Made by a program: the position numbers and the translations under genes. Shown one piece after another: positions 4,539-22,064 of a stretch of 64,000 bases of DNA; position 1 is the stretch's first letter, and every line of letters starts with the position of its first letter. The notes beneath the pieces were generated by a model. It was not told the DNA's origin and searched no databases. It was given only the letters and a program-made list of their open reading frames with translations. Source of the DNA: Bordetella sp. H567 (GTDB taxonomy: Bacteria; Pseudomonadota; Gammaproteobacteria; Burkholderiales; Burkholderiaceae_B); NCBI RefSeq assembly GCF_001704295.1, contig NZ_CP012334.1, positions 620,001 to 684,000 of the forward strand, in the 5' to 3' direction.

Positions 4539-5344
4539 GGCGCCGGCATCCGGTTGGCCACCCGCCGCCCCATGCCGGGCAGGAAACTTGCTGCGATGCC
4601 CGCGTCCGCATGCGCCAGCGCGCGTTCCACGGCCTCCGGCACGGCCAGACCGTGCGCCAGGTAGGCGGTCAGGGCCGTCGCCAGCATGCCGCCGCTGTCG
4701 CTGCTGCGTTCCGGTGGGGCCTGCCAAGGCGAATTGCTGGTAGCGCCGTTGGGGCCCACCAGCATGTTCGCATAGTGGCCTGGCCGCAGCGGGCTGCCCA
4801 GCACCAGCACCCATTTCGCGCCGGCGCCCTGCATCGCATGGGCGGGCGACGACGCTTCGCCGATATCCATGGTGCCGTCTGCCAGCCATTGCGCCAGCCG
4901 GGCATGCTCTACCACGACGACATCCGCCTGGGGCAGCACCAGTTCGAGCGTGGCCGCCAGCAGGTCGTCGGCATCTTCCTGTTCGGCCGCGTCCTCGGGC
5001 AGTTGTCCGCGCTGTCCCAGATGCAGGACCAGCGGCACGTGGCTGTAGTCCGCCGCGACCTGCGCTACGGCGCTGGCGGCCTCGGCGGTATACAGGCCGC
5101 CTACCTTGATGGCCTGCACCGGCATGTCCTCGAGCAGGCAGCGGGCCTGGTCGTCCAGCAATTCCGGGGCGATAGCCTGGACGTCCTCCACGGCGGCGGT
5201 ATCCTGCACCGTCAGGGCGGTGACGGCGGCCAGCCCGTGACAGCCCAGTCTGGCGCAGGTAACGGCGTCGGCAGGCAGCCCGTCGGACCCGGTGGGATCG
5301 AAGGGACCGAAGATCAGTACGATGGGGGGAGTGGGAAAATTCAC
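4535..5344 (-). CDS. ThiD-like hydroxymethylpyrimidine kinase, divergent
   Basis: 269 residues, ribokinase fold. The N-terminal GPFDPTGSDGLPADAVTC and GLAAVTALTVQDT align with the HMP-binding region of ThiD, and position before thiE supports an HMP/HMP-P kinase. The rest is unlike classical ThiD. The DPVM...SG segment is replaced by a stretch around HLGQRGQLPEDA, TPN..EA is replaced by VVVEHARLAQ, and the C-terminal GTGC anion-hole motif reads DSGGM. The protein may still phosphorylate HMP, or may have changed substrate. No other thiamine kinase gene is in the window. Start chosen at the ATG at 5344. Confidence 0.75.
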   Translation of the reverse strand: MNFPTPPIVLIFGPFDPTGSDGLPADAVTCARLGCHGLAAVTALTVQDTAAVEDVQAIAPELLDDQARCLLEDMPVQAIKVGGLYTAEAASAVAQVAADYSHVPLVLHLGQRGQLPEDAAEQEDADDLLAATLELVLPQADVVVVEHARLAQWLADGTMDIGEASSPAHAMQGAGAKWVLVLGSPLRPGHYANMLVGPNGATSNSPWQAPPERSSDSGGMLATALTAYLAHGLAVPEAVERALAHADAGIAASFLPGMGRRVANRMPAP

Positions 5345-5491
5345 TTCGACAGCATGGCCGGCCCCGATTTTTGTGCAAACCGGGCCAGTAACCTATTGGG
5401 TTTGGGTAAGATCGACCCCATTCTAATGGATCGCGTCCGCTTGGGCGGTTTTATCCCTCGCTAGGGCCGTAACTTTGATTTCAGGGAAACT

Positions 5492-5656
5492 ATGCGAACT
5501 TGGATGTGTCTGATCTGTGGCTGGGTCTATGACGAAGAAGCTGGTCTGCCGGAAGAAGGCATCGCACCCGGCACCCGCTGGGAAGATGTGCCACCCAACT
5601 GGGTTTGCCCGGAATGCGGCGCCCGCAAGGAAGATTTCGAGCTGATGGAGATCTGA
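5492..5656 (+). CDS. Rubredoxin
   Basis: A 54-residue protein, the standard rubredoxin size. Two CxxC-type knuckles, MCLICGW (Cys6, Cys9) and VCPECGA (Cys39, Cys42), bind a single iron; the PEEGIAPGTRWEDVP segment between them is highly conserved. It is a cytoplasmic one-electron carrier. A GGGAAAC stretch ends at 5490, just before the ATG. It is divergent from the thiD-like gene (147 bases apart) and lies upstream of yqgE. No rubredoxin reductase or partner oxidase is in the window. Confidence 0.95.
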   Translation: MRTWMCLICGWVYDEEAGLPEEGIAPGTRWEDVPPNWVCPECGARKEDFELMEI

Positions 5657-5732
5657 CACAAGCATCCTGTTTGCCGGTTTCCTTGGATTCCGGTTCCGCG
5701 TGATAGGGCGCGAATTGTCCTGGGGGGACATC

Positions 5733-6326
5733 ATGAGCGACAACGACAACAAGCCTGACGGTGACGACACGCCGGGGGTCGATTTTTCCAATCAGTTCCT
5801 GGTCGCTATGCCCAACATGGTCGAAGGCAGTCTGGCAGGGGCGGTGATTTATATCTGCGAGCACACCGCCAAGGGTGCGCTGGGCCTGGTCATCAACCGG
5901 CCCACGGACCTGACGCTGGGCACCCTGTTCGAACGCATCGATTTGAACCTGGAAATCGCACCGGTCAAGGAAACCCCGGTGTTCTTCGGCGGCCCGGTAC
6001 AGACGGACCGCGGCTTCGTCCTGCATGCGCCACCCGGCGACTACACGTCCAGCATCAAGCTCGGCGGCCTGGCGCTGACCACGTCGCGCGATGTGCTGCA
6101 AGCGGTGGCCGACGGCAACGGCCCTGCACGCATGCTGGTCACCCTGGGCTACGCCGGATGGGGCGCGGGGCAGCTGGAGAGCGAAATGGCGCGCAACGCG
6201 TGGCTCAGCGTGTCGGCGGACCCGGACATCATCTTCGACGTACCGCCGGAAGACCGTTATCCCGCCGCCCTGAAGCTGCTGGGTATCGACCCGGTCATGC
6301 TGGCCGGGGATGCGGGCCATGCCTGA
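5733..6326 (+). CDS. YqgE/AlgH family protein
   Basis: 197 residues of the conserved but poorly understood YqgE/AlgH family. Recognisable by FLVAMPNM near the N terminus, YICEH, GALGLVINRP, and FFGGPVQTDRGFVLH. The ATG at 5733 follows a GGGGGGA ribosome site at 5722-5728; an in-frame upstream start at 5700 lacks one. The last bases overlap the start of ruvX, a pairing conserved across proteobacteria. The molecular role is unknown; AlgH was first linked to alginate regulation in Pseudomonas. Confidence 0.92.
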   Translation: MSDNDNKPDGDDTPGVDFSNQFLVAMPNMVEGSLAGAVIYICEHTAKGALGLVINRPTDLTLGTLFERIDLNLEIAPVKETPVFFGGPVQTDRGFVLHAPPGDYTSSIKLGGLALTTSRDVLQAVADGNGPARMLVTLGYAGWGAGQLESEMARNAWLSVSADPDIIFDVPPEDRYPAALKLLGIDPVMLAGDAGHA

Positions 6327-6717
6327 GGAAACGCTGCTGGCCTTCGACTTCGGCACCAAGAAGATCGGCATCGCCATCGGCAACACCCTGACGCGGCAGG
6401 CCACGCCGATGGAAATCATCCACAGCGAGATCCGCGATGTGCGCTTCGGCCGCATCGCGGCCTTGTTGCAGGAATGGCAGCCGCAGCGCCTGGTCGTGGG
6501 CCTGGCGCTGAACGCGGACGGCGGCGAACAGGAAGCCACCGGGCGCTGCCGCCGCTTCGCCAACCAGCTGCATGGGCGCTTCGGACTGCCTGTGGTGCTG
6601 GTGGACGAGCGAGGATCCAGCATGCAGGCCCAGGCGCTGCTGGGCACCAACGCGCCGGATGACGCGGTGGCCGCGGCCGTGATCCTGCAGCGCTACCTGG
6701 ACGCCTTGCCGGCGTAG
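6310..6717 (+). CDS. ruvX: Putative pre-16S rRNA nuclease / RuvX (YqgF)
   Basis: 135 residues, RNase H-like fold. The first catalytic aspartate sits in LLAFDFGTKKIGIAIGN; LVVGLALNADGGEQ and VLVDERGSSMQA carry the other conserved acidic positions. The family is linked to maturation of the 16S rRNA 5' end and was earlier named as a Holliday-junction resolvase. The start overlaps yqgE by 17 bases; a second ATG three codons later (6319) is equally possible. Both are within the same coupled junction. Confidence 0.93.
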   Translation: MRAMPEETLLAFDFGTKKIGIAIGNTLTRQATPMEIIHSEIRDVRFGRIAALLQEWQPQRLVVGLALNADGGEQEATGRCRRFANQLHGRFGLPVVLVDERGSSMQAQALLGTNAPDDAVAAAVILQRYLDALPA

Positions 6718-6723
6718 GGCTCC

Positions 6724-6739
6724 CGGCGCGATCGCGCCG
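6724..6739. repeat. 16-bp perfect palindrome between ruvX and plsC
   Basis: CGGCGCGATCGCGCCG reads identically on both strands. It lies seven bases after the ruvX stop and before plsC. It has no T-run, so it is not a convincing intrinsic terminator; it may be a short RNA hairpin or chance in GC-rich DNA. Confidence 0.4.
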
Positions 6740-6825
6740 TCAATTTGGCTGCGGATCTGAAATATGGCGGCATGGTATGGTGGCGTCCGCATATCGGCCC
6801 GCCACCGCCCATTCCCGACTTCCCT

Positions 6826-7743
6826 ATGACAGACAGCGGATCCTCAGCCACCCACCCTGAAGCCACTTCCACGGATTCCTCCGCCGATTTCCGCGCGGAT
6901 ACAGGCCGGGATGCCGACACCGCCCGGTCCCGGACAGGCGACGCGTCCGCGCCGGCAAGCGCGCGGCAGGATGTTCCGATACTGCCGGTGCGCATCCTGC
7001 GCTTTCTGCCGCGCGCGATCATCGTGGCGCTGACGGTCCTGGCGGGGCTGGTGCTGGTGGGTACCGTGTATCCGATCGTGGGCGCGCGTGGGCGCGACCT
7101 GCTCAACCGTACGTGGTCCCGCTGCCTGCTGCGCGTGTGCGGCGTGCGGCTGGCCGTGCGCGGGCAGCCGCTGATGCAGGGCGCCGTGCTGGTCGTCGCC
7201 AACCATGTTTCGTGGCTGGACATTTTCGTGATCAACGCCGTGCGGCCCACCGCCTTCGTGGCCAAAAGCGAAATCCGCCGCTGGCCCATCGTGGGGTGGC
7301 TGGTGGCTGGCGCGGGCACGCTGTTCCTGCAGCGTGACCATCGCCATGCCGTGCACACGGTGGGCGAGGCCATGAAGGCCCGCTTCACCACCCAGGAGTC
7401 AGTGGGGCTGTTTCCTGAAGGGACGACCACCGAAGGCTTTTCGCTGCTGCCGTTTCATGGCAGCCTGTTCGAGCCGGCGCGCCAGGCGGGCGTGCCCATC
7501 CAACCGGTGGCCCTGCGCTTCCTGCGGCACGGCAGGCGCGATGCCTACGCCGCCTTCGTGGGCGAGGAAACCCTGGTGGGCAACCTGTGGCGCGTACTCG
7601 GTGCGCGCGGGTTGGCGGTGGAAGCCATTTACCTGCCACCCTTGCCGGTGCAGGCGGCACAGACCCGCCTGCAGATGGCCGCCCACGCGCGGTCCGTCAT
7701 CGAGCGCGGGCTGGCGGGCGAACCGCCCTCGCCGGGCCGCTGA
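6826..7743 (+). CDS. plsC: 1-acyl-sn-glycerol-3-phosphate acyltransferase
   Basis: 305 residues from the ATG at 6826. It transfers an acyl chain to lysophosphatidate to form phosphatidate at the inner membrane. Visible features are a hydrophilic Ser/Asp-rich N terminus (1-50), one membrane helix at about 63-85, the catalytic NHVSWLD (His127, Asp132), and the substrate-binding FPEGTTT at 196-202. No strong ribosome site precedes 6826; in-frame starts at 6745 (TTG) and 6772 (ATG) would add up to 27 residues. The gene runs toward apaH. Confidence 0.92.
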   Translation: MTDSGSSATHPEATSTDSSADFRADTGRDADTARSRTGDASAPASARQDVPILPVRILRFLPRAIIVALTVLAGLVLVGTVYPIVGARGRDLLNRTWSRCLLRVCGVRLAVRGQPLMQGAVLVVANHVSWLDIFVINAVRPTAFVAKSEIRRWPIVGWLVAGAGTLFLQRDHRHAVHTVGEAMKARFTTQESVGLFPEGTTTEGFSLLPFHGSLFEPARQAGVPIQPVALRFLRHGRRDAYAAFVGEETLVGNLWRVLGARGLAVEAIYLPPLPVQAAQTRLQMAAHARSVIERGLAGEPPSPGR

Positions 7744-10669: not shown

Positions 10670-11572
10670 TTACCGTGGCGCGGCCGCCGCCAGCTCGCGC
10701 CGCAGCGCGGCCAGGACCGGCTCGGCATCGGGCCGCACGCCATGCCAGATGAAGAAGCTTTCCGCCGCCTGGCCGACCAGCATGCCCAGGCCATCGGCGG
10801 TGGCGGCGGCGCCGTCGGCCTCGGCCTGTCGCATGAACGGCGTGGGTTGCGCGCCGTACATCATGTCGTAGGCCAGCGCACCGTCGGCGTACAGGCCGGC
10901 GGGCAGGTCCGGCGCGGCGTCGCCCAGGCTGCTGGCCGTGGCGTTGATGACCACGTCCCAGGGGCCGCCCTTGTGCGCCTCGCTCAGGCCGCCCGCGCTG
11001 ACGGCAGGCGAGGCCGCGCCGGTGGCGCGCAGCCATTCGGCGGCCAGCGCATGGGCGCGTTCGGGCGTGCGGTTGACGATGTGGATGCGGGCGCAGCCCG
11101 CCTCGGCCAGCGGTTGCAGCACGCCGCGCGCGGCGCCGCCCGCGCCCGCCATCAGCACGCGGGCACCCGCCAGTTCCGCCCCCAGGCGGCGCAGGTCGGC
11201 CACCAGGCCGACGCCGTCGGTATTGCAGCCGTGCAGGACGCCGTCGCGCATCCACAATGTATTGACCGCCCCGGCCAGGCGGGCGCGATCGCTCAGGTGC
11301 GGCGCGGCCAGCGACCACGCTTGCTCTTTGAACGGCACGGTCACGTTCAGGCCGCGCCCCTGGCTGTCGAAGAAACCGCGCACGGCGGCCGCGAAACCAT
11401 CCGGCGGCGCGGGAAGCAGCCCGTATTCCAGGACGATGCCGGTCTGTTCGCCGAACAAGGCGTGGATACGCGGCGAGCGGCTGTGGGCCACGGGGTTGCC
11501 GATGACGGCATAGCGCCCCGGCACCGGCGTGTCCGCGCCGGGCGTCGCGTGGGAGGAGGACATGGCGGTCAT
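10670..11572 (-). CDS. aroE: Shikimate dehydrogenase
   Basis: 300 residues. It reduces 3-dehydroshikimate to shikimate with NADPH. The shikimate site is visible in IGNPVAHSRSP and in NVTVPFKEQAW (catalytic Lys); NTDGVGL carries the paired Asp. The nucleotide site is GAGGAARGV followed by NRTPERA, where the Arg suggests NADP. The C-terminal Gln-containing helix reads LGMLVGQAAESFFIW. The start overlaps the stop of the tonB gene by four bases. The pairing with aroQ elsewhere in the window is not an operon. Confidence 0.95.
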   Translation of the reverse strand: MTAMSSSHATPGADTPVPGRYAVIGNPVAHSRSPRIHALFGEQTGIVLEYGLLPAPPDGFAAAVRGFFDSQGRGLNVTVPFKEQAWSLAAPHLSDRARLAGAVNTLWMRDGVLHGCNTDGVGLVADLRRLGAELAGARVLMAGAGGAARGVLQPLAEAGCARIHIVNRTPERAHALAAEWLRATGAASPAVSAGGLSEAHKGGPWDVVINATASSLGDAAPDLPAGLYADGALAYDMMYGAQPTPFMRQAEADGAAATADGLGMLVGQAAESFFIWHGVRPDAEPVLAALRRELAAAAPR

Positions 11573-12462
11573 GGCGCCCGGGTCTCCAGCGTGTCGTTGA
11601 CGAAATTCCAGGTGCGCGTGATCGCCAGTATGTCGGTATCGCGCGCGATATCCGGCGGGAATGGCGCGAACGGCGCGGCCAGCTGCACGATGCGGCGCGC
11701 GGCCTGGTTCAACACCGGATACTTCGACGGCGTGTCGATTTCCACGTCGGCGACGCTGCCGTCGGCGCGCACGTAGACGGTCATGCGCAGGGTGCCATAG
11801 AGCTTGCCGCGCGCCTCGTCCGGGTAGTTCTGCGTGCCCACGGCTTCCACGCGGGAACGCCAGGCGTCCAGGTATTGCGCGTAGCGCGAGGCCTGTGCCG
11901 ACGGCGCGACGAAGGTGCGCCGTGGGCGTTTGTTGTAAGCCTGTACCCGCGCGGCCAGCGCCGCGACCTGGGCATTCTGCAGCACGCTGTCCTGGTCCTG
12001 GTCCTCGCGGCCCGGCGTGTTGGCATCCGGCACCGATTCGCCGGACTGGTGCGGCGGGCTAACCTGGGTGCTGGCCTGCAGCTGCGACAGCAGGCGCTGC
12101 TGGGCTTCCTCCAGCGATGCCTGCCGCTTGCGCATGGCTTCCAGGACCACCGCGCTGGGCGCGTCGCCGGATTGGGGCAGGGGGGATTGCGCCATGCCTT
12201 TTTCCGCGTCCCCGCCGCCTTCCACGTTGGCCTGAGCCTGGGCTTCCGGCTTGGCGGGGGCGTTGTCGGTCTTGGCGTTGACCAGGATGACTTCCAGGGA
12301 TTGCGCCGGCGGCCGCGGCGCACGGGACGGCGCGAATCGCACCGCCAGGACGGCCCCGTGGACGATCAGCGAGATCGCCAGGGCCAGCCACAGGTGGTGT
12401 TGCGCGGGCGCGCCCATCCAGCGGGCGGCCCGGGTGAGGGAGGAGTGTGGATCGTCTTGCAC
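11569..12462 (-). CDS. TonB family energy transducer
   Basis: 297 residues. A cytoplasmic N terminus leads to one membrane helix at about 23-41 containing SLIVHGAVLAV, with the SxxxH pattern typical of TonB. Then comes a long Ala/Gln/Pro/Glu-rich linker and a C-terminal TonB domain (about 200-290) with YPDEARGKLYGTLRMTVYV. It would pass proton-motive energy to outer-membrane receptors. No exbB/exbD or receptor gene is nearby; its neighbours are aroE and mtgA. It could instead serve an envelope role unrelated to iron. Confidence 0.85.
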   Translation of the reverse strand: MQDDPHSSLTRAARWMGAPAQHHLWLALAISLIVHGAVLAVRFAPSRAPRPPAQSLEVILVNAKTDNAPAKPEAQAQANVEGGGDAEKGMAQSPLPQSGDAPSAVVLEAMRKRQASLEEAQQRLLSQLQASTQVSPPHQSGESVPDANTPGREDQDQDSVLQNAQVAALAARVQAYNKRPRRTFVAPSAQASRYAQYLDAWRSRVEAVGTQNYPDEARGKLYGTLRMTVYVRADGSVADVEIDTPSKYPVLNQAARRIVQLAAPFAPFPPDIARDTDILAITRTWNFVNDTLETRAP

Positions 12463-12566
12463 GCAGGCATTTTAGTCGTCTTGCGTGACGGCCGCCCCAC
12501 CCTGTCCGCCACGCCTGGCGTCAATGGGGTTCGCCCGCCCGCGTGTACGCCGGGCCGGCGGCGCGC

Positions 12567-13652
12567 CTACGCCTGCCGCGGAAAAATCCACATCTGTGAC
12601 GCCGGCAACGCCAGCCGGTGGGCACCCGGGGCGCGGTTTTCCTGGCCATAGGCGCGCAGCGCGATCCCGGTGACGGATTCTTCGCCGGGCGGACGGAAGA
12701 CGTATTCCCAACGGTCGCCCAGGTACATGCTCGTCATCAGGCGCATGTCGACGTGGTTGCCCTGCGGCTCGTCGCCCAGGCGCACCTGTTCCACGCGGAT
12801 GACGCCGATCGCGTCCTGCCCGGCCTGCACGCCGGCGCCGGCCTTGCCCCACAACGCCCACCCCTGGCCTTCCAGCCGGGCGGCGCCGTCGCGGATCTCG
12901 GTGACCCGGCCGTTCAGGCGGTTGTTGCTGCCCATGAATTCGGCGCAGAACAGGGTGGCGGGCGAGCCATACATTTCCTGCGGCGTTCCCTGCTGTTCGA
13001 TGCGGCCGTTGTTCAGCAGCAGGATGCGATCGGAGATGGCCATCGCCTCGCTCTGGTCGTGCGTCACCATCAGCGCCGACAGCCCCAGGCGCACGATCAG
13101 CTCGCGCAGGAAGGCGCGCGCTTCCTCGCGCAGCTTGGCATCCAGGTTGGAGAGCGGTTCGTCCAGCAGGATCACCGGCGGGTTGTAGACCAGCGCCCGG
13201 CCGATGGCCACGCGTTGTTGCTGGCCGCCGGACAACTGGTGCGGATGGCGCTGCGCCAGGTGCCCCAGGCCCAGCTGGTCCAGCACCTCGTGCACGCGCT
13301 GGCGGGTTTCCGCGCCGGAGGTGCGACGCAGCTGCAGCGGATAGGCCACGTTATCGAATACGGTCTTGTGCGGCCACAGCGCGTAGGACTGGAAAACCAG
13401 GCCCAGGTTGCGTTCCTCCGCCGGCACTTCGCGCCGCGCGGCGCCGTCGTAGACCATGCGCTCGCCGATCGCGATCTTGCCGCGCTTGGGCGCTTCCAAC
13501 CCGGCGACGGCGCGCAGCAGCGTGGTCTTGCCGCTGCCGGAAGGGCCCAGCAGCGACACGACTTCGCCCTGCTTCAGGGCCATCGATACACCCTTCAGGA
13601 CGGGATTGTCGCCATAGTCCAGGTGCAGGTCGTCAACGGATAGTTCAATCAT
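12567..13652 (-). CDS. ABC importer ATP-binding protein (AfuC/FbpC/PotA-like)
   Basis: 361 residues. Walker A GPSGSGKTT is at residues 36-44, the signature is LSGGQQQRVAIGRAL, Walker B is VILLDEPLSNLD, and the H-loop is MVTHDQSEAM. A C-terminal TOBE-type domain (about 240-355) is the kind found in importers for iron, polyamines, sulfate and sugars. The ATG at 13652 overlaps the end of the permease gene by eight bases. Last gene of the regulator-kinase-importer unit. Annotation pipelines would call it a ferric iron ATPase; the substrate is not evident from the sequence. Confidence 0.9.
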   Translation of the reverse strand: MIELSVDDLHLDYGDNPVLKGVSMALKQGEVVSLLGPSGSGKTTLLRAVAGLEAPKRGKIAIGERMVYDGAARREVPAEERNLGLVFQSYALWPHKTVFDNVAYPLQLRRTSGAETRQRVHEVLDQLGLGHLAQRHPHQLSGGQQQRVAIGRALVYNPPVILLDEPLSNLDAKLREEARAFLRELIVRLGLSALMVTHDQSEAMAISDRILLLNNGRIEQQGTPQEMYGSPATLFCAEFMGSNNRLNGRVTEIRDGAARLEGQGWALWGKAGAGVQAGQDAIGVIRVEQVRLGDEPQGNHVDMRLMTSMYLGDRWEYVFRPPGEESVTGIALRAYGQENRAPGAHRLALPASQMWIFPRQA

Positions 13653-15417
13653 GAAGTTTCACTCCGAATCGCAGGGCGATGCCCAGGCCGATGACGACCA
13701 AAGCGATATTGATGAAGGAAAGCGCCGCCACGATGTCGATGGCGCCGGCCGCCCACAGCGACACCAGCATGGACCCGATGGTCTCCGTGCCCGGCGACAG
13801 CAGATACACCCCGGTGGAGTATTCGCGCTCGAAGATCAGGAACATCAGCAGCCACGAACCGATCAGCCCGTAGCGCGCCAGCGGCACGGTGACGTGGCGC
13901 GTCACCTGTCCGCGCCGGGCGCCGGCGCTGCGCGCGGCTTCCTCCAGTTCCGGGCCGACCTGCAGCAGCGTGGAGGAAATCAGGCGCAGCCCGTAGGCCA
14001 TCCACACCACCGTATAGGCCAGCCACACGCTGAAGATGGTGCTGCGTATGGAGCGCAGCCATTCCACCACGTGATCGCGCATCCAATCCGCGTAGGGCAG
14101 GAAGGACAGCAGCCCGCCTTCGTCCAGCGAATTGTCCAGCCATAGCGGCACGAACAGGAACACCCACAGGAAGGCCAGGCCGGCCAGCAGCCCGGGCACC
14201 GCGCGCGGCACCAGCACGCTGTAGTCCAGGAAACGCGTGACGTGGTCGGGCTTGCGGTGCATCGCCAGGCCGATGAAGGTGTAGCCAGCCACGGCCAGCG
14301 CACCGCCGAACACGCCGATGGCGACCGAATTGACGATGGCGCGCAGCAGATTGGGCTGGCCCCACACCGAACGGAAGGCGTCCAGCGACAGGACGTCCAG
14401 CAGCGACACGCCCATCCCCCAGTTGGAGACGAAGGCGCGCAGCACCACGCCGGCCAAGGGCACGAAGATCGCCACGATCAGCCACGCCCACACCACCACG
14501 CTGGCCACGCCGCGCCACTTGCCCAAGGGCAGCGGGCGGGGGCGCGAGGCCTTGCCCTTGACGGTGACGAAGCGATTGGCCGTGCGCATCAGCCGCCGCT
14601 GCAGCGCGACCAGCGGGATGGTGAGGCAGATCAGCACCACGGCGACCGCGGCCATCAAGTGGTACGACGGCGTGCCCAGCTTGTTGGTCAGCTTGTACAG
14701 ATAGGTGGCCAGCACCAGGTTGCCTTCCGGGTCGCCCAGCACCAGCACCAGGCCGAATACTTCCAGGCCCAGGAAAAACAGCAGCACCGACGCGTAAAGC
14801 AGCGCCGGCCGCACCATGGGCAGGCTGACCGACATCATCACGCGCAGCGGCGACGCGCCCGTGACGCGCGCGGCTTCCTCGACATCCGAGCCCATGCTGC
14901 GCAGGGCCGACGAGATGTACAGATAGGCGTGCGGCACGTGGGTCAGGCCGGCGATGATGACGATGCTGGTCATGGAATACACATTCCATGGCACGAAGCC
15001 CAGGAGTTGCTTGGCCCAGGTCGAAAAGAAGCCGACCGGCCCGGCCGCCACGACATAGCCGAAGCCCAGCACCATCGGCGAGACGAAAACGGGCACCAGG
15101 ATCAGTGGCTGTATCCAGTGCCGGCCCGGCAGGTCGGTGCGCACCATCAGGAAAGCCAGCATGCCGCCCAGCGGCACGGCGATGATGAACAGGCCGAATG
15201 CCAGGATCAGGCCGCTGACCAGCGCCTTGTAGAAATCCGGGTCGTCGAAGATGAAGCGGAAGGCGTCCAGTCCGACTTCCTTCGACGGCGAGAAGAAAGG
15301 CGCGGAAAGAAAGCTCTGGTACACGATTAGCGACAGCGGCACGTATATGGCCAGCGCGGTGATCAATACCACGACCCCGCGCGGCAGTGACTGCCATCTG
15401 GAGCGCAATGTCTGCAT
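13645..15417 (-). CDS. ABC importer permease with two fused membrane domains
   Basis: 590 residues, about 12 membrane helices in two homologous halves, as in FbpB/AfuB. Each half has an EAA loop that docks on the ATPase: EEAARVTGASPLRVMM in the first and EEAARSAGARRGQVTR in the second. The ATG at 15417 begins MQTLRSRW; longer in-frame starts would cover the GC hairpin upstream and are rejected. It lies 234 bases downstream of the binding-protein gene and overlaps the ATPase gene. It would form the inner-membrane pore of the importer described here. Confidence 0.92.
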   Translation of the reverse strand: MQTLRSRWQSLPRGVVVLITALAIYVPLSLIVYQSFLSAPFFSPSKEVGLDAFRFIFDDPDFYKALVSGLILAFGLFIIAVPLGGMLAFLMVRTDLPGRHWIQPLILVPVFVSPMVLGFGYVVAAGPVGFFSTWAKQLLGFVPWNVYSMTSIVIIAGLTHVPHAYLYISSALRSMGSDVEEAARVTGASPLRVMMSVSLPMVRPALLYASVLLFFLGLEVFGLVLVLGDPEGNLVLATYLYKLTNKLGTPSYHLMAAVAVVLICLTIPLVALQRRLMRTANRFVTVKGKASRPRPLPLGKWRGVASVVVWAWLIVAIFVPLAGVVLRAFVSNWGMGVSLLDVLSLDAFRSVWGQPNLLRAIVNSVAIGVFGGALAVAGYTFIGLAMHRKPDHVTRFLDYSVLVPRAVPGLLAGLAFLWVFLFVPLWLDNSLDEGGLLSFLPYADWMRDHVVEWLRSIRSTIFSVWLAYTVVWMAYGLRLISSTLLQVGPELEEAARSAGARRGQVTRHVTVPLARYGLIGSWLLMFLIFEREYSTGVYLLSPGTETIGSMLVSLWAAGAIDIVAALSFINIALVVIGLGIALRFGVKLHD

Positions 15418-15480
15418 GGGAATATCCTGTGTTCGAGCGCGTGGCGCCGGGTGGCGGGCGCCGCGCACCGTGGCACGGCA

Positions 15481-15519
15481 GGGCGGGGCGGCATGGCTTT
15501 TGGCGCGGCCGCCCCGCCC
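15481..15519 (-). repeat. 12-bp inverted repeat (RNA hairpin) between binding-protein and permease genes
   Basis: GGGCGGGGCGGC (15481-15492) pairs perfectly with GCCGCCCCGCCC (15508-15519) around a 15-base loop. It has no T-run. Hairpins in this position of importer operons often slow 3'-to-5' decay or partly stop transcription, giving more binding protein than permease; that role is inferred. Confidence 0.6.
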
Positions 15520-15651
15520 GGCGCACGGTCCTAATCGATCCGGGCGCCGACCGTTCCTTGCACCCCGCCGCGCGGACGGGGCGCCCGCGCGGCACGGGCT
15601 GCCCATCCGGCCCGCGCGGGGCGGGGGTCTTTTCCTACGTCGCAGGCAGGC

Positions 15652-16746
15652 TTACTTGCCGGCCGCCTTGCGCCAATCGTTGATGAATTCCAGGCGCTTC
15701 TTCTGCTGCAGGTAGTCCAGCAGCGAGTCGTTCACCGGGATGGGCTTGAGCGCGTTGCCCAGCTTCTTGGTCAGGCCGTCGACGTCGTTATCGCCCGGGA
15801 TGTCATCGCGGATCGAAGCCATGTCGGCCTTGTTGGCGACCAGGTCCTGGCCTTTTTGCGACAGCAGGTAGTCCAGCCACAGCTTGGCGGCGTTGCGATG
15901 CTTGGACTTCTTGCTGATGAAGGCTACGCGCGACAGCACCAGCGTGTAGTCGGTCGGATAGACGATACCGATGGATTCATCCTTGCGGGCACGCGCTTCG
16001 GCGTAGGAGCCAAGGATGTTGTAGCCGAGCAGGTTTTCGCCGGACGACACGCGTTCCATCATCGTGCCGGTGGAGGACTGCACCACCAGCCCGCCCTTGC
16101 CGGTATCGCGCAGGGTGTCGAAGTAGTGCGGGTCGTTCATCTTGTCCTGCACGGCGAGCATGAAGCCCACGGCGGATTTCTCGATGTCGTAGGTGGTGAC
16201 CTTGTTCTTGAACTTGTCCGTCTGCGTGGCCACCAGCTTGGCCAGTTCGCCGTGGGTCTTGGGCACCTCGGCCTGCGGAATCAGGCGCTTGTTGTAGATG
16301 AAGACCGCCGGTTCGTAGGTCGTGCCGTAGGCGGCATCCTTCCACACCGCCCACTTGGGCAGCTTGCCTGCTTCGGGCGACTTGTATTCCAGGGCGTAGT
16401 CCTTGGCCAGCTGCAGGGCGGAGTCCATGGATGAGCTCCACACCACATCGCCGCTGGTGCCGCCGGAGGCCTGCTCGCTGATATAGCGGTTGTAGATCTC
16501 CGTGCTGTTCATGTCGTTGTATTCGACCTTCACGCCCGGATAGGCAGCTTCAAAGCCCTTGATGATGGGATCCGCGGTCTTGGTATCCGTCGTGGAGTAG
16601 ATCACCACCGTGCCCTCTTTCTTGGCTCCGTCGATGATCTTCTGGTAATCCGACGGATAACCCGCGGGCGTCTGGGCCAGCGCGTTCACGGCGATCAGGG
16701 AAAAAGCGGCGGCGCAGGCCACCGCCAGGCGTGACGGGACGAGCAT
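15652..16746 (-). CDS. Periplasmic solute-binding protein (family 1, AfuA/FbpA-like)
   Basis: 364 residues. A clear signal peptide ends at NALA (residue 24). The mature protein has the two-lobed type II binding fold, with LPKWAVWKDAAYG, EPAVFIYNKR, YDIEKSAVGFMLAVQD, GYNILGSYAEAR and YTLVLSRVAFI. It would deliver ligand to the permease encoded downstream. GGAGAAG seven bases before the ATG at 16746 sets the start. The Tyr-Tyr pair that binds iron in Neisseria-type FbpA is not apparent, so the customary iron label is unproven; AfuA relatives bind hexose phosphates. Its sequence is clearly paralogous to the C-terminal domain of the adjacent kinase. Confidence 0.92.
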   Translation of the reverse strand: MLVPSRLAVACAAAFSLIAVNALAQTPAGYPSDYQKIIDGAKKEGTVVIYSTTDTKTADPIIKGFEAAYPGVKVEYNDMNSTEIYNRYISEQASGGTSGDVVWSSSMDSALQLAKDYALEYKSPEAGKLPKWAVWKDAAYGTTYEPAVFIYNKRLIPQAEVPKTHGELAKLVATQTDKFKNKVTTYDIEKSAVGFMLAVQDKMNDPHYFDTLRDTGKGGLVVQSSTGTMMERVSSGENLLGYNILGSYAEARARKDESIGIVYPTDYTLVLSRVAFISKKSKHRNAAKLWLDYLLSQKGQDLVANKADMASIRDDIPGDNDVDGLTKKLGNALKPIPVNDSLLDYLQQKKRLEFINDWRKAAGK

Positions 16747-16775
16747 GGTTGTCTTCTCCAGTTTGGAATAGTGAA

Positions 16776-16815
16776 GCTGAACAGGTTCAGCGTGGCCGCA
16801 TCTTAGTGGCCGCAT
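16776..16815. promoter_or_regulatory. Dyad plus direct repeat upstream of the binding-protein gene
   Basis: In the 107-base gap between the kinase and binding-protein genes, GCTGAACAGGTTCAGC (16776-16791) is a perfect 7+7 inverted repeat with a two-base centre. It directly abuts two copies of GTGGCCGCAT (16792-16801 and 16806-16815), 14 bases apart start to start. The dyad ends 30 bases before the ATG. Such an arrangement suggests an operator, possibly for the response regulator encoded at 19416-20087; this is inference. Confidence 0.5.
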
Positions 16816-16853
16816 GCTGTCGCCGTCCTGTCATGGCGGCGGCCATGCTCCCG

Positions 16854-19364
16854 TCACGGGCTGGACGCCTTGCCCACCGCCGGCGTGTCGGTGACCAGCC
16901 GGGTCCAGTTCTGCACGAAGCGGGCGTGGCGCTGGCGGTCCAGGCCGACGAGCAGCGCCGGGCCCAGCACGACAGGCTGCACGATGCCTTGCGAACCGAT
17001 CAAGGCCGTGCCGGCGTTCCAGCCGGCGCCGCTGTCGTCAGCCATGGGGCCCAGCCCGCTGACGTTGGAGATTTCCGTCTGGCCGGCCGGCGAAAGCAGC
17101 CAGTCGATGAACGCGCGTCCCAGCCCGGGATGGGGCGCGTGGCGGGCGATCAGCGCCGATCGTGGCAGCACCAGCACGTAGTCCTGCGGGAAGATCACGC
17201 CTATCGGGCGTCCGGCGGCGCGGCGCGCCAGCGCGTAGGAGCCCAGCACGTTGTAGCCGATATCCAGTTCGTCGTTCTCGATGGCATTCAGGATGTCGGC
17301 CGTGGTCGCGCTCAACCGCACGCCCACCTGGCCCAGCGCATTGGTCAGGCCCCAGAAGTTGGACGACACCTGCTCGTCTTCCTCGGCCAGCACCTGCCCC
17401 ACGCTGCTGCGGCTGATGTCATAGGTGCCGACACGCCCATGCAGCTTCGCGCGTTCGGTTTCCAGCAGGCGCAGCAGTTCCTGCCGCGAACGCGGCACCG
17501 TCGCTTCGGTAAAGCGGCGTGGGTTGTAGGCGATGACCGCGGGTTCGAACGCGAAGCCGAAGACCTCGTCGCGCCACACCGCCCAGGACGGCAGGCGCTC
17601 CGCGCCCGGCGCGTCGTAGCGCATCGCATAGCCGTCGTTGGCCAGGCGGATCTGCAGGTCGGCCGCCGAGCTGACGAGGACGTCGGCATCCTTGAGCTGG
17701 CCGGCAACCGTCGCTTCGTACAGCTCGCGGCTTCCCATTTCGCGATATTCCACGGTCACGTCCGGCTGGCTTGCCTGGAAAGCGACGATCACCGGCGCGG
17801 CGGCCGGCGTATCGGTCGTCCCGGCGATGACCAGCAGGCGGTCCGTGGGCTGGGGCGCGAGGAAGCGCGTCACGGTGAACGGCGCGGACGCCCCCTGGAC
17901 GTTGGCCGCCGCCCGGGCGGGCGCGGGCGGCAAGGCCAGCAGCCCGGCCAGCATGGCCGCCGCCGCCAGCAGGGCGCGCGGATACACCGGGCGGGCGCGC
18001 GGCAGGATGACACGCGCCGACAGGCCGCCGCCCTGGCGGTCCTGCAGCCACAATGCGCCGCCGTGCGCCTCGGCCACCGTCTTGGCGATCGACAGGCCCA
18101 GGCCCGAGCCTGGTGTCCCTTCCCCGGTGCGGCCGCGGGTAAACCGCTGCTGCACGGCTTGCTTCTCGTCGTCGGCGATGCCCGGCCCGCAGTCGTTCAC
18201 CGTCAGCGCGACCCGGTACCCCGCTACCGGCGTGGCCTGGATTTCCACGTCTCCCTCGGGCGCGTAACGCAGGGCGTTGTCCACCAGGTTGCGCAGCATC
18301 TCGCGCAGCGCCACGCGGTCGCCCACCACGCGCGCGCGCCGCACTTCCGGCGCAATAGAGATACGCAGGCGCCGCGCTTCCAGCGGCCCGATACGGCGGC
18401 GCGTTTCGTTGATGGTTTCGGCGATGCCGACCGATGCGTGGCCCCGCATGCCCAGGCGGTGCGCGATGGTGGCGTCCATCAGCAATTGGTTGATCAGCTG
18501 GCTGGCGTGGGTGGCGTTCTGGTGGATGCGGGCGACGCGGGCGCGCAGCCGATCGGGATCCGTTTCATCCATCGCCACCTCGGCTTGCGCGCGCAGCGAC
18601 GCCAACGGCGTGCGTACCTGGTGGGCCGCGTCGGCCACCAGGTTGTTCAGCGAGGACATGATGCCCCCCAGGCGGCGCATGAAGCCGTTCAGTGCTGCCG
18701 CCAGTCCCTTGACTTCGCGCGGCACCGGCGCTTCCAGGGGCGTCAGGTCATCCGGTGCGCGGGCGCGCAGCGAACGTTCGATCAGCACCAGCGGCGCGAA
18801 CGCGCGCTGGATGCCGAACCACAGCAGCGCCAGCGCCACCGGCACGACCACCAGCAGGGGCAGCGCGCTGCGGTTCAGGATTTCGGCCGCCAAGGCATCG
18901 CGCGCGTCGCGTGTTTCGGCGACGCGGATGGTCACCCAGCCCGCGTGCCGCCCCGCCGAAATCAGGCGTCCCACGGTGGCGATGCGTATGGGTTCATCGT
19001 GGTAGCTGGCATCCGAAAATACCGGCGCGGCCGACTGCGCCAGCGGCAGGCCGGGGGCGAGGTCGTCGTAGCCGGTAATCGGCTTGCCGCTGGCGTTGCG
19101 CACGCTGTAGAAGACCCGGTCATTGCCCGACAGCATGGCCAGCGAGGAAAATGGCGGCTCGGCCGTGACGTCGTTTTCGTCGATCTGTACCGAGCCGGCG
19201 ATGGTCAGGGCCGATGCCGCGAGCAGCCGGTCGAAGGCCTGGTCGGCCGCGCGGTGCGCATAATCGCGCAGGAACAGGCTGACGGCGACGGATACGCAGA
19301 GCAGCAGCAGGCAGCCCATCGCGAATACCCGCCCGCGTATGGAAAAGGCCGCGGCCATGGTCAT
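16854..19364 (-). CDS. Histidine kinase fused to a C-terminal periplasmic solute-binding domain
   Basis: 836 residues in one open frame. Order: helix 1 (about 12-32); periplasmic sensor (33-165); helix 2 (about 167-185); HAMP-like linker; dimerisation/phosphoacceptor domain with His248 in DAAHQVRTPLASL; ATPase domain with N-box NLVDNALRYAPEG (Asn363), G1 NDCGPGIADDE and G2 GTPGSGLGLSIAK. Unlike ordinary kinases it then has a third hydrophobic segment (about 464-480) after the basic stretch RARPVYPR, ending in PARA, and a complete solute-binding domain (about 497-825). That domain matches the protein encoded at 15652-16746 through LPSWAVWRDE, EPAVIAYNPR, YDISRSSVGQVLA, GYNVLGSYALAR and YVLVLPRSALI. 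An ATG two codons downstream (19358) is an equal start candidate. The likely partner is the regulator encoded 51 bases upstream. Confidence 0.93.
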   Translation of the reverse strand: MTMAAAFSIRGRVFAMGCLLLLCVSVAVSLFLRDYAHRAADQAFDRLLAASALTIAGSVQIDENDVTAEPPFSSLAMLSGNDRVFYSVRNASGKPITGYDDLAPGLPLAQSAAPVFSDASYHDEPIRIATVGRLISAGRHAGWVTIRVAETRDARDALAAEILNRSALPLLVVVPVALALLWFGIQRAFAPLVLIERSLRARAPDDLTPLEAPVPREVKGLAAALNGFMRRLGGIMSSLNNLVADAAHQVRTPLASLRAQAEVAMDETDPDRLRARVARIHQNATHASQLINQLLMDATIAHRLGMRGHASVGIAETINETRRRIGPLEARRLRISIAPEVRRARVVGDRVALREMLRNLVDNALRYAPEGDVEIQATPVAGYRVALTVNDCGPGIADDEKQAVQQRFTRGRTGEGTPGSGLGLSIAKTVAEAHGGALWLQDRQGGGLSARVILPRARPVYPRALLAAAAMLAGLLALPPAPARAAANVQGASAPFTVTRFLAPQPTDRLLVIAGTTDTPAAAPVIVAFQASQPDVTVEYREMGSRELYEATVAGQLKDADVLVSSAADLQIRLANDGYAMRYDAPGAERLPSWAVWRDEVFGFAFEPAVIAYNPRRFTEATVPRSRQELLRLLETERAKLHGRVGTYDISRSSVGQVLAEEDEQVSSNFWGLTNALGQVGVRLSATTADILNAIENDELDIGYNVLGSYALARRAAGRPIGVIFPQDYVLVLPRSALIARHAPHPGLGRAFIDWLLSPAGQTEISNVSGLGPMADDSGAGWNAGTALIGSQGIVQPVVLGPALLVGLDRQRHARFVQNWTRLVTDTPAVGKASSP

Positions 19365-19415
19365 TGCACCCCCGCGCGGACGATGGAAGACGCCGTGCCG
19401 ATGCGCATCGCTCGG

Positions 19416-20087
19416 CTAGGACGGCTCATGCAGGCGCGCCTGGTATCCGACGCCGCGCACGGTCACGATGTCGACGGTCGCGCCGGCGATCTTGCGGCGC
19501 AGCCGGGACACCAGCAGCTCCAGCGCATTCGGCAGCACGTCTTCCAGGTCGAAAAGCTGGCTCATCAGTCTTTCCTTCGCCACGGTGCTGCCCATGCGAT
19601 CCAGCAGGATTTCCAGCAGCCGGAACTCGCGCCGTCCCAACGTCACCGGCACGCCGCCGATATGTGCCGTGCGCCCGGCCACGTCCAGCGTCAGATTGCC
19701 GTGTACCGCGACGCTGGTGGTGCGGCCCGCCGGCCGGCGCAGCAGGGCGCGCAAGCGCGCTTCCAATTCGCGCAGATCGAAGGGCTTGACCAGGTAATCG
19801 TCCGCGCCCAGGTCCAGCATATCGATCTTGTCCTCGATTTCCGCCCGCGCGGTCACCACCAGTACCGGTGCCTCCGTGCCGGATGCGCGCAGTTCGCGGA
19901 TGACATCGAAACCGCTCTTGCCCGGCAGCATGATGTCCAGCACCAGCGCGTCCCATTCCTCGTGGCGGCTCCATCGCAGTGCGCTTTCTCCGTCGCGCAC
20001 CCATTCCACGCTGTGGCCCGACGCGCGCAGTTTGCTTTCGATCGCGTCGCCCAGGTCGGCATTGTCTTCGATCAGCAGTATCCGCAT
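19416..20087 (-). CDS. OmpR-family response regulator (TctD-like)
   Basis: 223 residues. The receiver domain has the acidic pocket IEDNAD, phosphoacceptor Asp51 in LVLDIMLPGKSG, Thr79 and Lys101 (VKPFD). The C-terminal winged helix (about 125-220) has GRREFRLLEILL and VRGVGYQARLHE. It is first in the unit of regulator, kinase-binding-protein fusion, binding protein, permease and ATPase, all on the minus strand, so it probably activates or controls that importer. No strong promoter was recognised in the 48 bases before it. Confidence 0.93.
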   Translation of the reverse strand: MRILLIEDNADLGDAIESKLRASGHSVEWVRDGESALRWSRHEEWDALVLDIMLPGKSGFDVIRELRASGTEAPVLVVTARAEIEDKIDMLDLGADDYLVKPFDLRELEARLRALLRRPAGRTTSVAVHGNLTLDVAGRTAHIGGVPVTLGRREFRLLEILLDRMGSTVAKERLMSQLFDLEDVLPNALELLVSRLRRKIAGATVDIVTVRGVGYQARLHEPS

Positions 20088-20135
20088 CGTGTTCCTCCGG
20101 CATCCGGCCCTTGCGGCGACATGGGCGGCGCCCGC

Positions 20136-22064
20136 TTATTCGGTCTCGGCCTCGCTTTCCTCGGCCGCCGCCGGCAGTTCGCCGACGAAGCGGCATTCCA
20201 CCTCCAGCGTCAGTTCGTCGCGGTCCAGCAGGTCGATCTCCACCTGCGTGCCGCGTGCCAGCGCGGGCAGGCCGCCGACGCGGGTGACCAGCGGCGCATT
20301 GTTCAGCCGCACCAGGTCGTCGCGCAGCACGCTCGCCGTGGTGCGCGTGATGCCCTGCTGCGCCAGCCAGCGCAGGCACCAGTATCGTTCCATGGTGTTC
20401 TGGAAGTCACTCCAGGCGGCGTATTGCGCGTCGAACGCACCGATGATGGCGAACAGGTCCGCGTCGCGCGGCTTGAAGGGAGCAACCAGGCGCGCCGACA
20501 CGCCGTTGTCCACCGCCGCGATCAGCTGCCACTGGTTGACCAGGTCGACATAGCGGCGCAGCGGGGAGGTGCTCCACGCATATTGCGGCACGCCGATGGC
20601 TTCATGCGGCAGCGCCTGGGTGCTCATCCGCACCCGGCCGGCCTGCTGCGATCGGTAGATGCCCGGCACGCCGTGCTGCGCCAGCAGGCCGCCCCACAGA
20701 TTGTTGGCCAGGATCATGTATTCGGCGACCATGCGGTCCAGCGGGGCGTTGCGCTTGCGCGGCACCAGGCGCACCGGCGTATCTGGATTGTCCGGATCGC
20801 CGTCCACGTAATAGCTGTATTCCACGCGGCTGTTGTTTTCGGGCTTGCCGCGCACTTCGTCGCGCTTCGCCGACAGCGCCCGCGCCAGCCGCCACAGCGG
20901 GCGCAGCCATTCGCCGTAGGGCAGGGACGCGTGCGGATCGTCCAGCGTGGCTTCCGTGACCACGTCGTCCAGCAGGTTGTGGCGCAGGTTCTCGCGCACC
21001 ACGATGCGTTCGACCCGGCTTTCGGATTCCAGGATTTCGCCCGTATCCGGGTCCGCGGTGACATATAAGGACAAGGCCGGGACTTCGCGGCCGGCGTCCA
21101 GCGAAAAAGCCTGGATCACCGAGTCAGGCTGCATGGGGATCTTGTCCCCCGGCATGTAGACCGTGGACAGCCGTGCGCGCGCCAGCTTGTCCAGCTCACC
21201 GCCACGCGTGACGGCCAGGCCGGGCGCGGCCACGTGGATGCCCACGCGAACCTTGCCGTCGGGTAGCGGGGACACCGACAGCGCATCGTCGATCTCCGTC
21301 GTCGTCACGTCGTCCACCGAATAGATCTCGGCGTCCGCCAGCGGCAGCTCGCGCTCCAGCGCGGGGATTTGTACTTCGGGGAAGCCCGTGCCGCGGGGAA
21401 AGTACTGCGCCAGGAAGCGGCGCTTGTGCAAGGCCAGCGCATGCGGGAAGGCACCCAGGTCCAGCAGCAGGCGGTCCGGGCTTTTGTGCAGCCGCGAACA
21501 CGCGCTTTCCACGGCCTTCCATTGCATGGTGTTCTTGTCGGGACGCACCACCAGCGCTTCGGCCATGGCAGCGATGTCCTCCGGCAGGCGGCCCGCCACC
21601 ATGTCTTCCACCCATTGCTGTTGGCGGGCGGCCTGCTGCTGCTTTTTCTCGATGGCGGCCAGCGCGGCGGCCAGGATATCCGGCGGGGCCGGGCGATAGC
21701 GCCCCTTGCCGCGCCGATGGAAATACGCCGGCGCGCCGTGCAGCCGCATGAGCAGCGCCGCCTGTTCGGTCGGGGAGGGCGCATGGCCGTAGTAGTCGGC
21801 CGCCAGCGCCGGCGAATCGAATTCCTCCTGCGGAGCGCATTCCCACAGGAATTGCAGATCGATGTCTTCGGCCGCCGCTTCGGCCTGGCGCAGCAGCTCC
21901 ACCGGCTCGGGCGTTGAAAAGGTGAAGATCGCGTTGGCCCGCTTGATCTTGCTGCGTTTGCCCGATTCGGATTCCACCTGCAGGCTGGCGTCCGTTTCGG
22001 AAATGATATGTCCGGCCTTGAACTGGCCGTCGTCTTCGTAAAACACGTGCATGGCGAGGTCCAT
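20136..22064 (-). CDS. RNB-domain exoribonuclease (RNase II/R family)
   Basis: 642 residues. The catalytic RNB domain starts near residue 245 with IYSVDDVTTTEIDDALSV, the Asp-rich site that binds magnesium, and continues through VGIHVAAPG, MPGDKIPMQPDS and STSPLRRYVDL. The N-terminal 240 residues are family-specific and lack clear cold-shock domains. The protein would degrade RNA from the 3' end in the cytoplasm. It is shorter than RNase R and lacks a lysine-rich tail. Upstream of the regulator gene by 48 bases but probably functionally separate. Confidence 0.88.
   Translation of the reverse strand: MDLAMHVFYEDDGQFKAGHIISETDASLQVESESGKRSKIKRANAIFTFSTPEPVELLRQAEAAAEDIDLQFLWECAPQEEFDSPALAADYYGHAPSPTEQAALLMRLHGAPAYFHRRGKGRYRPAPPDILAAALAAIEKKQQQAARQQQWVEDMVAGRLPEDIAAMAEALVVRPDKNTMQWKAVESACSRLHKSPDRLLLDLGAFPHALALHKRRFLAQYFPRGTGFPEVQIPALERELPLADAEIYSVDDVTTTEIDDALSVSPLPDGKVRVGIHVAAPGLAVTRGGELDKLARARLSTVYMPGDKIPMQPDSVIQAFSLDAGREVPALSLYVTADPDTGEILESESRVERIVVRENLRHNLLDDVVTEATLDDPHASLPYGEWLRPLWRLARALSAKRDEVRGKPENNSRVEYSYYVDGDPDNPDTPVRLVPRKRNAPLDRMVAEYMILANNLWGGLLAQHGVPGIYRSQQAGRVRMSTQALPHEAIGVPQYAWSTSPLRRYVDLVNQWQLIAAVDNGVSARLVAPFKPRDADLFAIIGAFDAQYAAWSDFQNTMERYWCLRWLAQQGITRTTASVLRDDLVRLNNAPLVTRVGGLPALARGTQVEIDLLDRDELTLEVECRFVGELPAAAEESEAETE

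Follow-up and report, generated by a model that had tools for sequence, protein, structure and literature searches.

A histidine kinase fused to a C-terminal solute-binding protein through a signal-peptide-like segment in Bordetella sp. H567 and in alphaproteobacteria

The window analysed here (64,000 nucleotides of Bordetella sp. H567, contig NZ_CP012334.1, positions 620,001 to 684,000; all coordinates below are those of the window) carries on its reverse strand a gene (16854..19364, 836 codons in a single frame) that joins a sensor histidine kinase to a complete solute-binding protein (SBP). The comparisons presented below make it probable that this gene encodes a processed polyprotein belonging to a three-component nutrient sensor (regulator, kinase and SBP), from which signal peptidase I would release the SBP. 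The observations that bear on this reading are the order of the domains, the conservation of the fusion, the conservation of the residues at the putative cleavage site, the existence of separate forms with overlapping genes, and the linkage to regulator and transporter genes.

The translation of 16854-19364 gives 836 amino acids with zero internal stops, as a previous sequence-only reading of this DNA had proposed, and Pfam searches of the full protein returned the order which that reading predicted, HATPase_c followed by a solute-binding domain; the complete order is 2CSK_N, HisKA, HATPase_c, hydrophobic segment and complete SBP. The kinase half (all features on the reverse strand) includes: a first transmembrane helix (TM1, 19269..19325, about residues 14-32, placed by eye); the N-terminal sensor region 2CSK_N (18879..19301, residues 22-162; PF08521, E 1.4e-35); a second transmembrane helix (TM2, 18813..18875, about residues 164-184, placed by eye); HisKA (18465..18650, residues 239-300; PF00512, E 1.5e-11), with the phospho-acceptor His248 at 18621-18623; and HATPase_c (17994..18323, residues 348-457; PF02518, E 9.9e-24), with the N-, G1- and G2-boxes. 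His248, N359/D362/N363, D391/G393/G395 and G419-L424 were invariant in an alignment of 26 sequences, and therefore the catalytic residues named from the sequence alone (His248 and the three boxes) were correct. The three domains together with these residues place the protein among the 2CSK_N (TctE/QseC-like) kinases, to which BctE of Bordetella also belongs; it is not QseC itself, since its NCBIfam QseC score (159.4 bits) is below the curated cut-off of 475. The remaining part (16857..17909, residues 486-836) is a type II SBP with matches to the Pfam families SBP_bac_11/8/1/6 (SBP_bac_11 at residues 510-763, E 8.8e-15); the TctC family (PF03401) was not found among its Pfam matches. The solved chains nearest to it by sequence are 3c9h and the 7f6e series, the latter presumably metal-citrate binders (a literature search did not confirm this).

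The fusion is conserved. The search of 200 genomes of the window's family (match threshold E<=1e-100) gave matches in 38 genomes, 35 of them fused in one frame, which contradicts the frameshift or stop near codons 455-490 that had been considered as a possible origin of a false fusion; two of the other matches were cut by contig ends (G152, G098), and one had broken frames (G138). Scanning named genomes yielded 43 loci, most of them from Devosia and others from Rhizobium, Pararhizobium, Pelagibacterium and Azospirillum: 37 one-frame fusions, two loci with separate genes (L079, L084), one cut locus (L080), one broken (L085) and two distant kinases without SBP. Matches at E<=1e-60 were present in 6 of 369 genomes sampled across the window's class, and the five besides the window's own genome have the kinase and the SBP in separate frames. 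The alphaproteobacterial sample gave matches in 19 of 385 genomes, and three of these carry a one-frame fusion (G570, G818 and G898; G570 is the centre of the search that also counts it). Outside the window's family and the named genomes scanned, the fusion looks rare. Plasmids gave 23 matching records, five of which were inspected, and two of these (L090, L091) each annotate one gene across the fusion. The 77 fusions compared in this work are the 35 same-family loci, the 37 from named genomes, L090 and L091, a second Azospirillum copy (L103), and L110 and L111 (from G818 and G898); they span the window's family, Devosia and other Hyphomicrobiales, Azospirillum and two further alphaproteobacteria, in complete and draft genomes alike. 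Same-locus duplicates, loci cut by contig ends (L031, L033, L080) and broken frames (L034, L085) were left out of these 77 and of the 100 kinase rows used below. In the two broken copies, L034 (G138, 4605-7143) and L085 (Devosia sp. A8/3-2), decay and sequencing error are indistinguishable.

The junction between the two halves is a segment resembling a signal peptide (17910..17999, residues 456-485), which ends at a predicted signal peptidase I site, A-R-A|A (residues 485/486, 17907..17912). The linker is variable in sequence and length along the 77-row alignment, and runs from a hydrophobic core, often through a proline (position 480 in 48 of 76 fusions), to a small-x-Ala motif. Position 485 (-1) is alanine in 76 of the 77 fusions and position 483 (-3) falls within the permitted set (A/V/S/T/G/L/I/C) in 76 of 77 (A 53, V 13, T 7, few others), with position 484 belonging to that set in just 11. 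This alternation corresponds to the -3,-1 rule of signal peptidase I. The number of changes per column, counted by parsimony on a FastTree tree inferred without the linker, was 1 at position 485, 22 at 483 (nearly all of them inside the permitted set) and 41 at 484, compared with a median of 25 for the 34 well-filled columns of 456-504 and of 8 for sampled kinase-core columns. The exception at -1, L090, has T-E-A shifted one residue downstream, probably an alignment slip. No cysteine indicative of a lipoprotein signal was seen at +1 in the fused linkers listed (checked by eye). The median distance from P455, where the ATPase domain ends, to the start of the hydrophobic core is 8 residues (range 0-35), and 4 to 81 residues lie between the cut site and the SBP fold over the 77 fusions; in six loci (L035, L036, L037, L038, L039, L042) the linker has long lineage-specific insertions on one or the other side of the cut site.

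The hydropathy of the segment is intermediate (median 1.95), nearer to that of the N termini of separate SBPs (1.64) than to that of the helices TM1 (2.92) and TM2 (2.51). The third hydrophobic segment recognised in the sequence-only reading is thus present, but in the window protein it is less hydrophobic (1.78) than TM1 and TM2 (best 19-residue means of 2.63 and 2.52) and resembles a cleavable signal peptide. Columns and hydropathy together describe two folded parts linked by an internal, signal-peptide-like segment whose -3 and -1 residues are conserved, as in a polyprotein processed by signal peptidase. A home-made, unvalidated cleavage profile, for which 55 TctC-family receptors from the window's genome served as the training set, did not separate the fused linkers from the N termini of separate SBPs (area under the curve, AUC, 0.453; 63 rows and 35 representatives, a mix of transporter and kinase-linked SBPs), and did separate them from TM1 of the same kinases (AUC 0.848) and from shuffled linkers (0.881); the control values against TM1 were 0.798 for the separate SBPs and 0.95 for the training receptors. 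An earlier profile, likewise unvalidated and trained on 35 separate SBPs, gave a modest AUC of 0.679 for the fused linkers against TM1. These scores are weakly supportive of cleavage at the junction. A simple site finder was rejected as evidence because it also found sites, at lower scores, in TM1 of all 77 kinases.

Several results weigh against cleavage at this place. Columns 501-503 (a YPA motif directly before the SBP fold) are also slow, with 2-5 changes, and column 485 is therefore not the sole constrained place; the MAFFT alignment may itself favour the alignment of alanines; only 9 of 38 representative linkers (21 of all 77) exceed the 95% TM1 level of the profile, versus 39 of the 55 training receptors; shuffling of the end region only reduces the profile scores modestly (AUC 0.65); the best site of the profile often differs from the column-485 site, though the two agree in the window protein; and the uncharged core (median 19 residues; 20-21 in TM1/TM2, 18 in separate SBPs) does not discriminate between an anchor and a signal peptide. 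Considering both sides, the third hydrophobic segment looks like a signal peptide in its build, and cleavable, and signal peptidase I probably releases the SBP from the fusion. A bacterial precedent is the FbcH cytochrome b/c1 precursor of Bradyrhizobium, a single chain that comprises a membrane protein and a periplasmic protein and whose internal signal sequence is cleaved (a literature search did not confirm this), although it serves a respiratory complex and not signalling.

The kinase and SBP halves were used to infer two independent trees (kinase tree: 100 rows, of a quick kind; SBP tree: 69 of 138 SBPs). The label fused or separate changes five times in each of them, at least four of these changes being forced by starred branches. 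L079 and L084, which have separate genes, nest within the fused clade in the kinase and the SBP trees alike, and this is read most simply as a separation event. On these trees the fusion does not appear as a single frozen event; the exact number of fusions and separations is unsure, because both trees have long branches and the kinase tree is quick. The 16 transporter SBPs of the window's family form their own clade (100/100), well apart from the fused SBPs, and a recent duplication of the neighbouring transporter SBP was accordingly rejected as the origin of the fused domain. A wider group of 'other' SBPs (21 rows, one change, support 92/64, 90% of 200 bootstrap trees) includes SBPs without a shown transporter role, with L118 and L129 near a kinase on the opposite strand.

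Among the 23 separate kinases, 16 are followed by an SBP on the same strand, two (L079, L084) are preceded by it, four (L095, L113, L115, L134) have it on the opposite strand, and one (L117) has none in the stretch examined. In each of the 16 adjacent pairs, which include near-copies (L120-L122; L093/L094), the two genes share exactly 4 bp (ATGA/GTGA/TTGA) and the SBP is in frame from the start codon at the overlap; by eye, almost every such start is followed by a signal peptide. The record annotation has the 4-bp overlap in L088 and L089, and sets the SBP start 59 bp downstream in L092. As judged from this layout, the adjacent separate genes are co-translated, and a frame shift within the overlap would yield the fused form. 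The kinases of the 16 pairs have no third hydrophobic segment, which is thus dispensable for this kind of sensor. The gene order is SBP then kinase in the Devosia locus L079 (4-bp overlap) and in L084 (1-bp gap); in both, the kinase terminates shortly past the ATPase domain and the N terminus of the SBP itself resembles a signal peptide. The unfused loci of Ensifer, Shinella and Bradyrhizobium encode a response regulator first, and then a kinase (41-43% identity) and an SBP (33-40%) homologous to those of the fusion; they differ in having two genes with the 4-bp overlap and a kinase without the third segment. On the Ensifer and Shinella plasmids (L088, L089) these separate sensors adjoin transporter genes including an annotated phnD, and in Shinella also phosphonate catabolism genes, which suggests a different ligand in that branch.

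In the mechanism that we propose, the kinase half would insert as usual (TM1, periplasmic 2CSK_N, TM2, cytoplasmic catalytic core), and the segment past the ATPase domain would act as an internal signal peptide for the Sec export of the C-terminal SBP. Signal peptidase I would cut after Ala485, so that the kinase would end in a short membrane segment and the SBP would be free in the periplasm, both made in a 1:1 ratio and at the same place. The ligand-loaded SBP would dock on the periplasmic domain of the kinase, as citrate-loaded BctC does on BctE, and the kinase would be switched; phosphotransfer to the adjacent TctD-like regulator would then control the neighbouring transporter operon. We infer the cleavage itself, the docking, the ligand and the regulon; the docking and signalling steps are drawn by analogy with BctC/BctE (sections of PMC5812351 and PMC9602780) and PgtC/PgtB (sections of PMC11077982). 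This analogy makes the control of the kinase by substrate binding, as suggested by the sequence-only reading, plausible. A broader proposal, held with somewhat less assurance though still favoured, joins a sensory polyprotein split by signal peptidase I (1:1 supply at the membrane) to its repeated origin from pairs with 4-bp overlaps, at least one reversal, and a kinase whose ATPase domain would stay anchored in the membrane by an unusual C-terminal segment. Whether or not the cut is made, the hydrophobic core would remain on the kinase and keep its ATPase domain close to the membrane, further trimming aside.

The main alternative is a permanent receptor crossing the membrane three times, as originally suggested, in which the third segment would be an uncleaved helix and the tethered SBP would fold back to contact the periplasmic domain within its own dimer. 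The location of the SBP on the periplasmic side, common to this model and to the processed polyprotein, is supported, and the continuous frame in all 77 loci, the membrane-spanning length of the third segment in many members (the median of 19 uncharged residues) and the increase in local receptor concentration that a tether would bring are in its favour; however, the -1 and -3 residues are kept (in L090 one residue on) while most of the linker varies freely, the third segment is less hydrophobic than TM1 and TM2, and the trees show the fused form giving way to separate genes. The tethered detector is unsupported by these data and we regard it as unlikely, since a junction site of the signal peptidase I type and the interchange of fused and separate states make the processed polyprotein the more likely of the two. 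A translation start inside the linker, from which the SBP would also or mainly be made, seems much less probable still: separate forms do use overlapping starts, the window protein has an in-frame GTG at residue 460, and a loose scan found a Shine-Dalgarno-like stretch before an in-frame start in 16 of the 77 fusions, but no such stretch precedes the GTG of the window, an in-frame ATG in the right range is present in only 35 fusions, and seven have no ATG, GTG or TTG at all. A sequencing, frame or annotation error merging two genes, to which the coexistence of fused and separate versions and the two broken copies might point, was rejected as practically excluded by 77 fused loci from complete and draft genomes of several groups and by the single gene also annotated in L090 and L091.

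Components of this kind are known from other systems. In Bordetella, citrate-loaded BctC stimulates the sensor kinase BctE beside a tricarboxylate transporter (according to sections of PMC5812351 and PMC9602780). The BctC/BctDE system (TctDE class) resembles the fusion in that an SBP acts on a sensor kinase, and TctD is the best NCBIfam match, below cut-off, of the window regulator; it differs in that BctC belongs to the TctC family and is a protein of its own that also serves the transporter, whereas the window SBP, of the SBP_bac_11/8/1 type, is fused to the kinase and is distinct from the neighbouring transporter SBP. In the Salmonella PgtABC system for phosphoglycerate sensing a response regulator, a kinase and a separate sensor protein, PgtC, jointly induce the transporter (the part consulted of PMC11077982), in agreement with the earlier citation of PgtB/PgtC as a kinase working with a binding-protein-like regulator; compared by description only, PgtB and PgtC are separate proteins, unlike the window fusion, and the regulator of that system acts with sigma-54, whereas that of the window has only Response_reg and Trans_reg_C. 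CuaD of Ruminiclostridium cellulolyticum, as partially described, is similarly a second SBP with a signalling role beside the SBP of the transporter, but it is a separate protein of a cellobiose system. BvgS and EvgS have SBP-like Venus-flytrap domains in the kinase polypeptide (part of PMC8534201); these are tandem, periplasmic and ahead of the kinase core, whereas the window SBP is single, C-terminal and behind a signal-peptide-like segment. Among uncommon input domains of kinases, a section of PMC4618731 lists SBP_bac_1 for single kinases of three Azospirillum strains, A. lipoferum 4B among them, and gives neither a C-terminal position nor a cut site; the co-occurrence of kinase and SBP is therefore already in print, within that section. 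These kinases are probably the same protein type as the fusion, because A. lipoferum 4B is among those strains and its locus L091 is a fusion. No discussion of a C-terminal, cleavable SBP on a kinase was found in the open-licence PMC literature, and our claim of novelty is limited to that literature.

Upstream of the fusion in the window is the gene of an OmpR/TctD-like response regulator (19416..20087, reverse strand; Pfam Response_reg and Trans_reg_C), which is TctD-like and not TctD, since its NCBIfam TctD score is 195.1 bits and the cut-off 337. A homologue lies upstream in 75 of the 77 fusions; the two remaining loci are cut short on that side. Downstream, on the same strand, are the genes of a separate transporter SBP (15652..16815), 35% identical to the fused SBP and sharing with it the motifs TYDI, GYN-LGSYA and DY-LVL-R (direct reading); of an ABC permease with two BPD_transp_1 stretches (13645..15606); and of an ABC transporter ATPase (12567..13652), the last two assigned by domain matches. 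NCBIfam models for 2-aminoethylphosphonate match this transporter, all below cut-off. The transporter-SBP homologue was found downstream in 35 of 35 same-family fusions, and the permease and ATPase in all 10 same-family loci with a long enough flank. A TctA gene is near the fusion in five of the seven alphaproteobacterial loci with neighbours tested (L048, L050, L057, L063, L082), the neighbours tested in L046 and L075 being ABC-type or unassigned, and TctABC-type genes also flank the fusion on the Peteryoungia and A. lipoferum plasmids. These Tct-type neighbours make carboxylates a fair guess for the ligand in those alphaproteobacterial lineages. The genome of the window (5.5 Mb) encodes at least 150 TctC-family (PF03401) receptors (150 of 199 candidates scored); a comparable expansion, with 79 members, was described in Bordetella pertussis (part of PMC9602780). 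Terminator-like hairpins number 12 in the region 11400-20600 of the window, versus a shuffle mean of 4.9, and one of them (about 16705-16727, reverse strand) is near the start of the transporter SBP gene. Opposite the SBP, kinase and regulator genes, the forward strand has an open frame of 1445 codons (16731-21068), which seems to result from codon usage at high G+C and not to be a gene.

The name given to 11 of the 23 plasmid matches is only 'extracellular solute-binding protein', and both inspected records of these are fusions; the name therefore hides a histidine kinase in both of them, a warning for annotation. Only about 10 cases of an SBP activating a sensor kinase have been characterised (as given in a part of PMC9602780), and how the amount and place of the receptor are matched to the kinase is an open question. 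Nature provides one sensor in several versions (overlapping genes, polyprotein and reordered genes), and these three versions make co-translation, processing and tethering separable by experiment.
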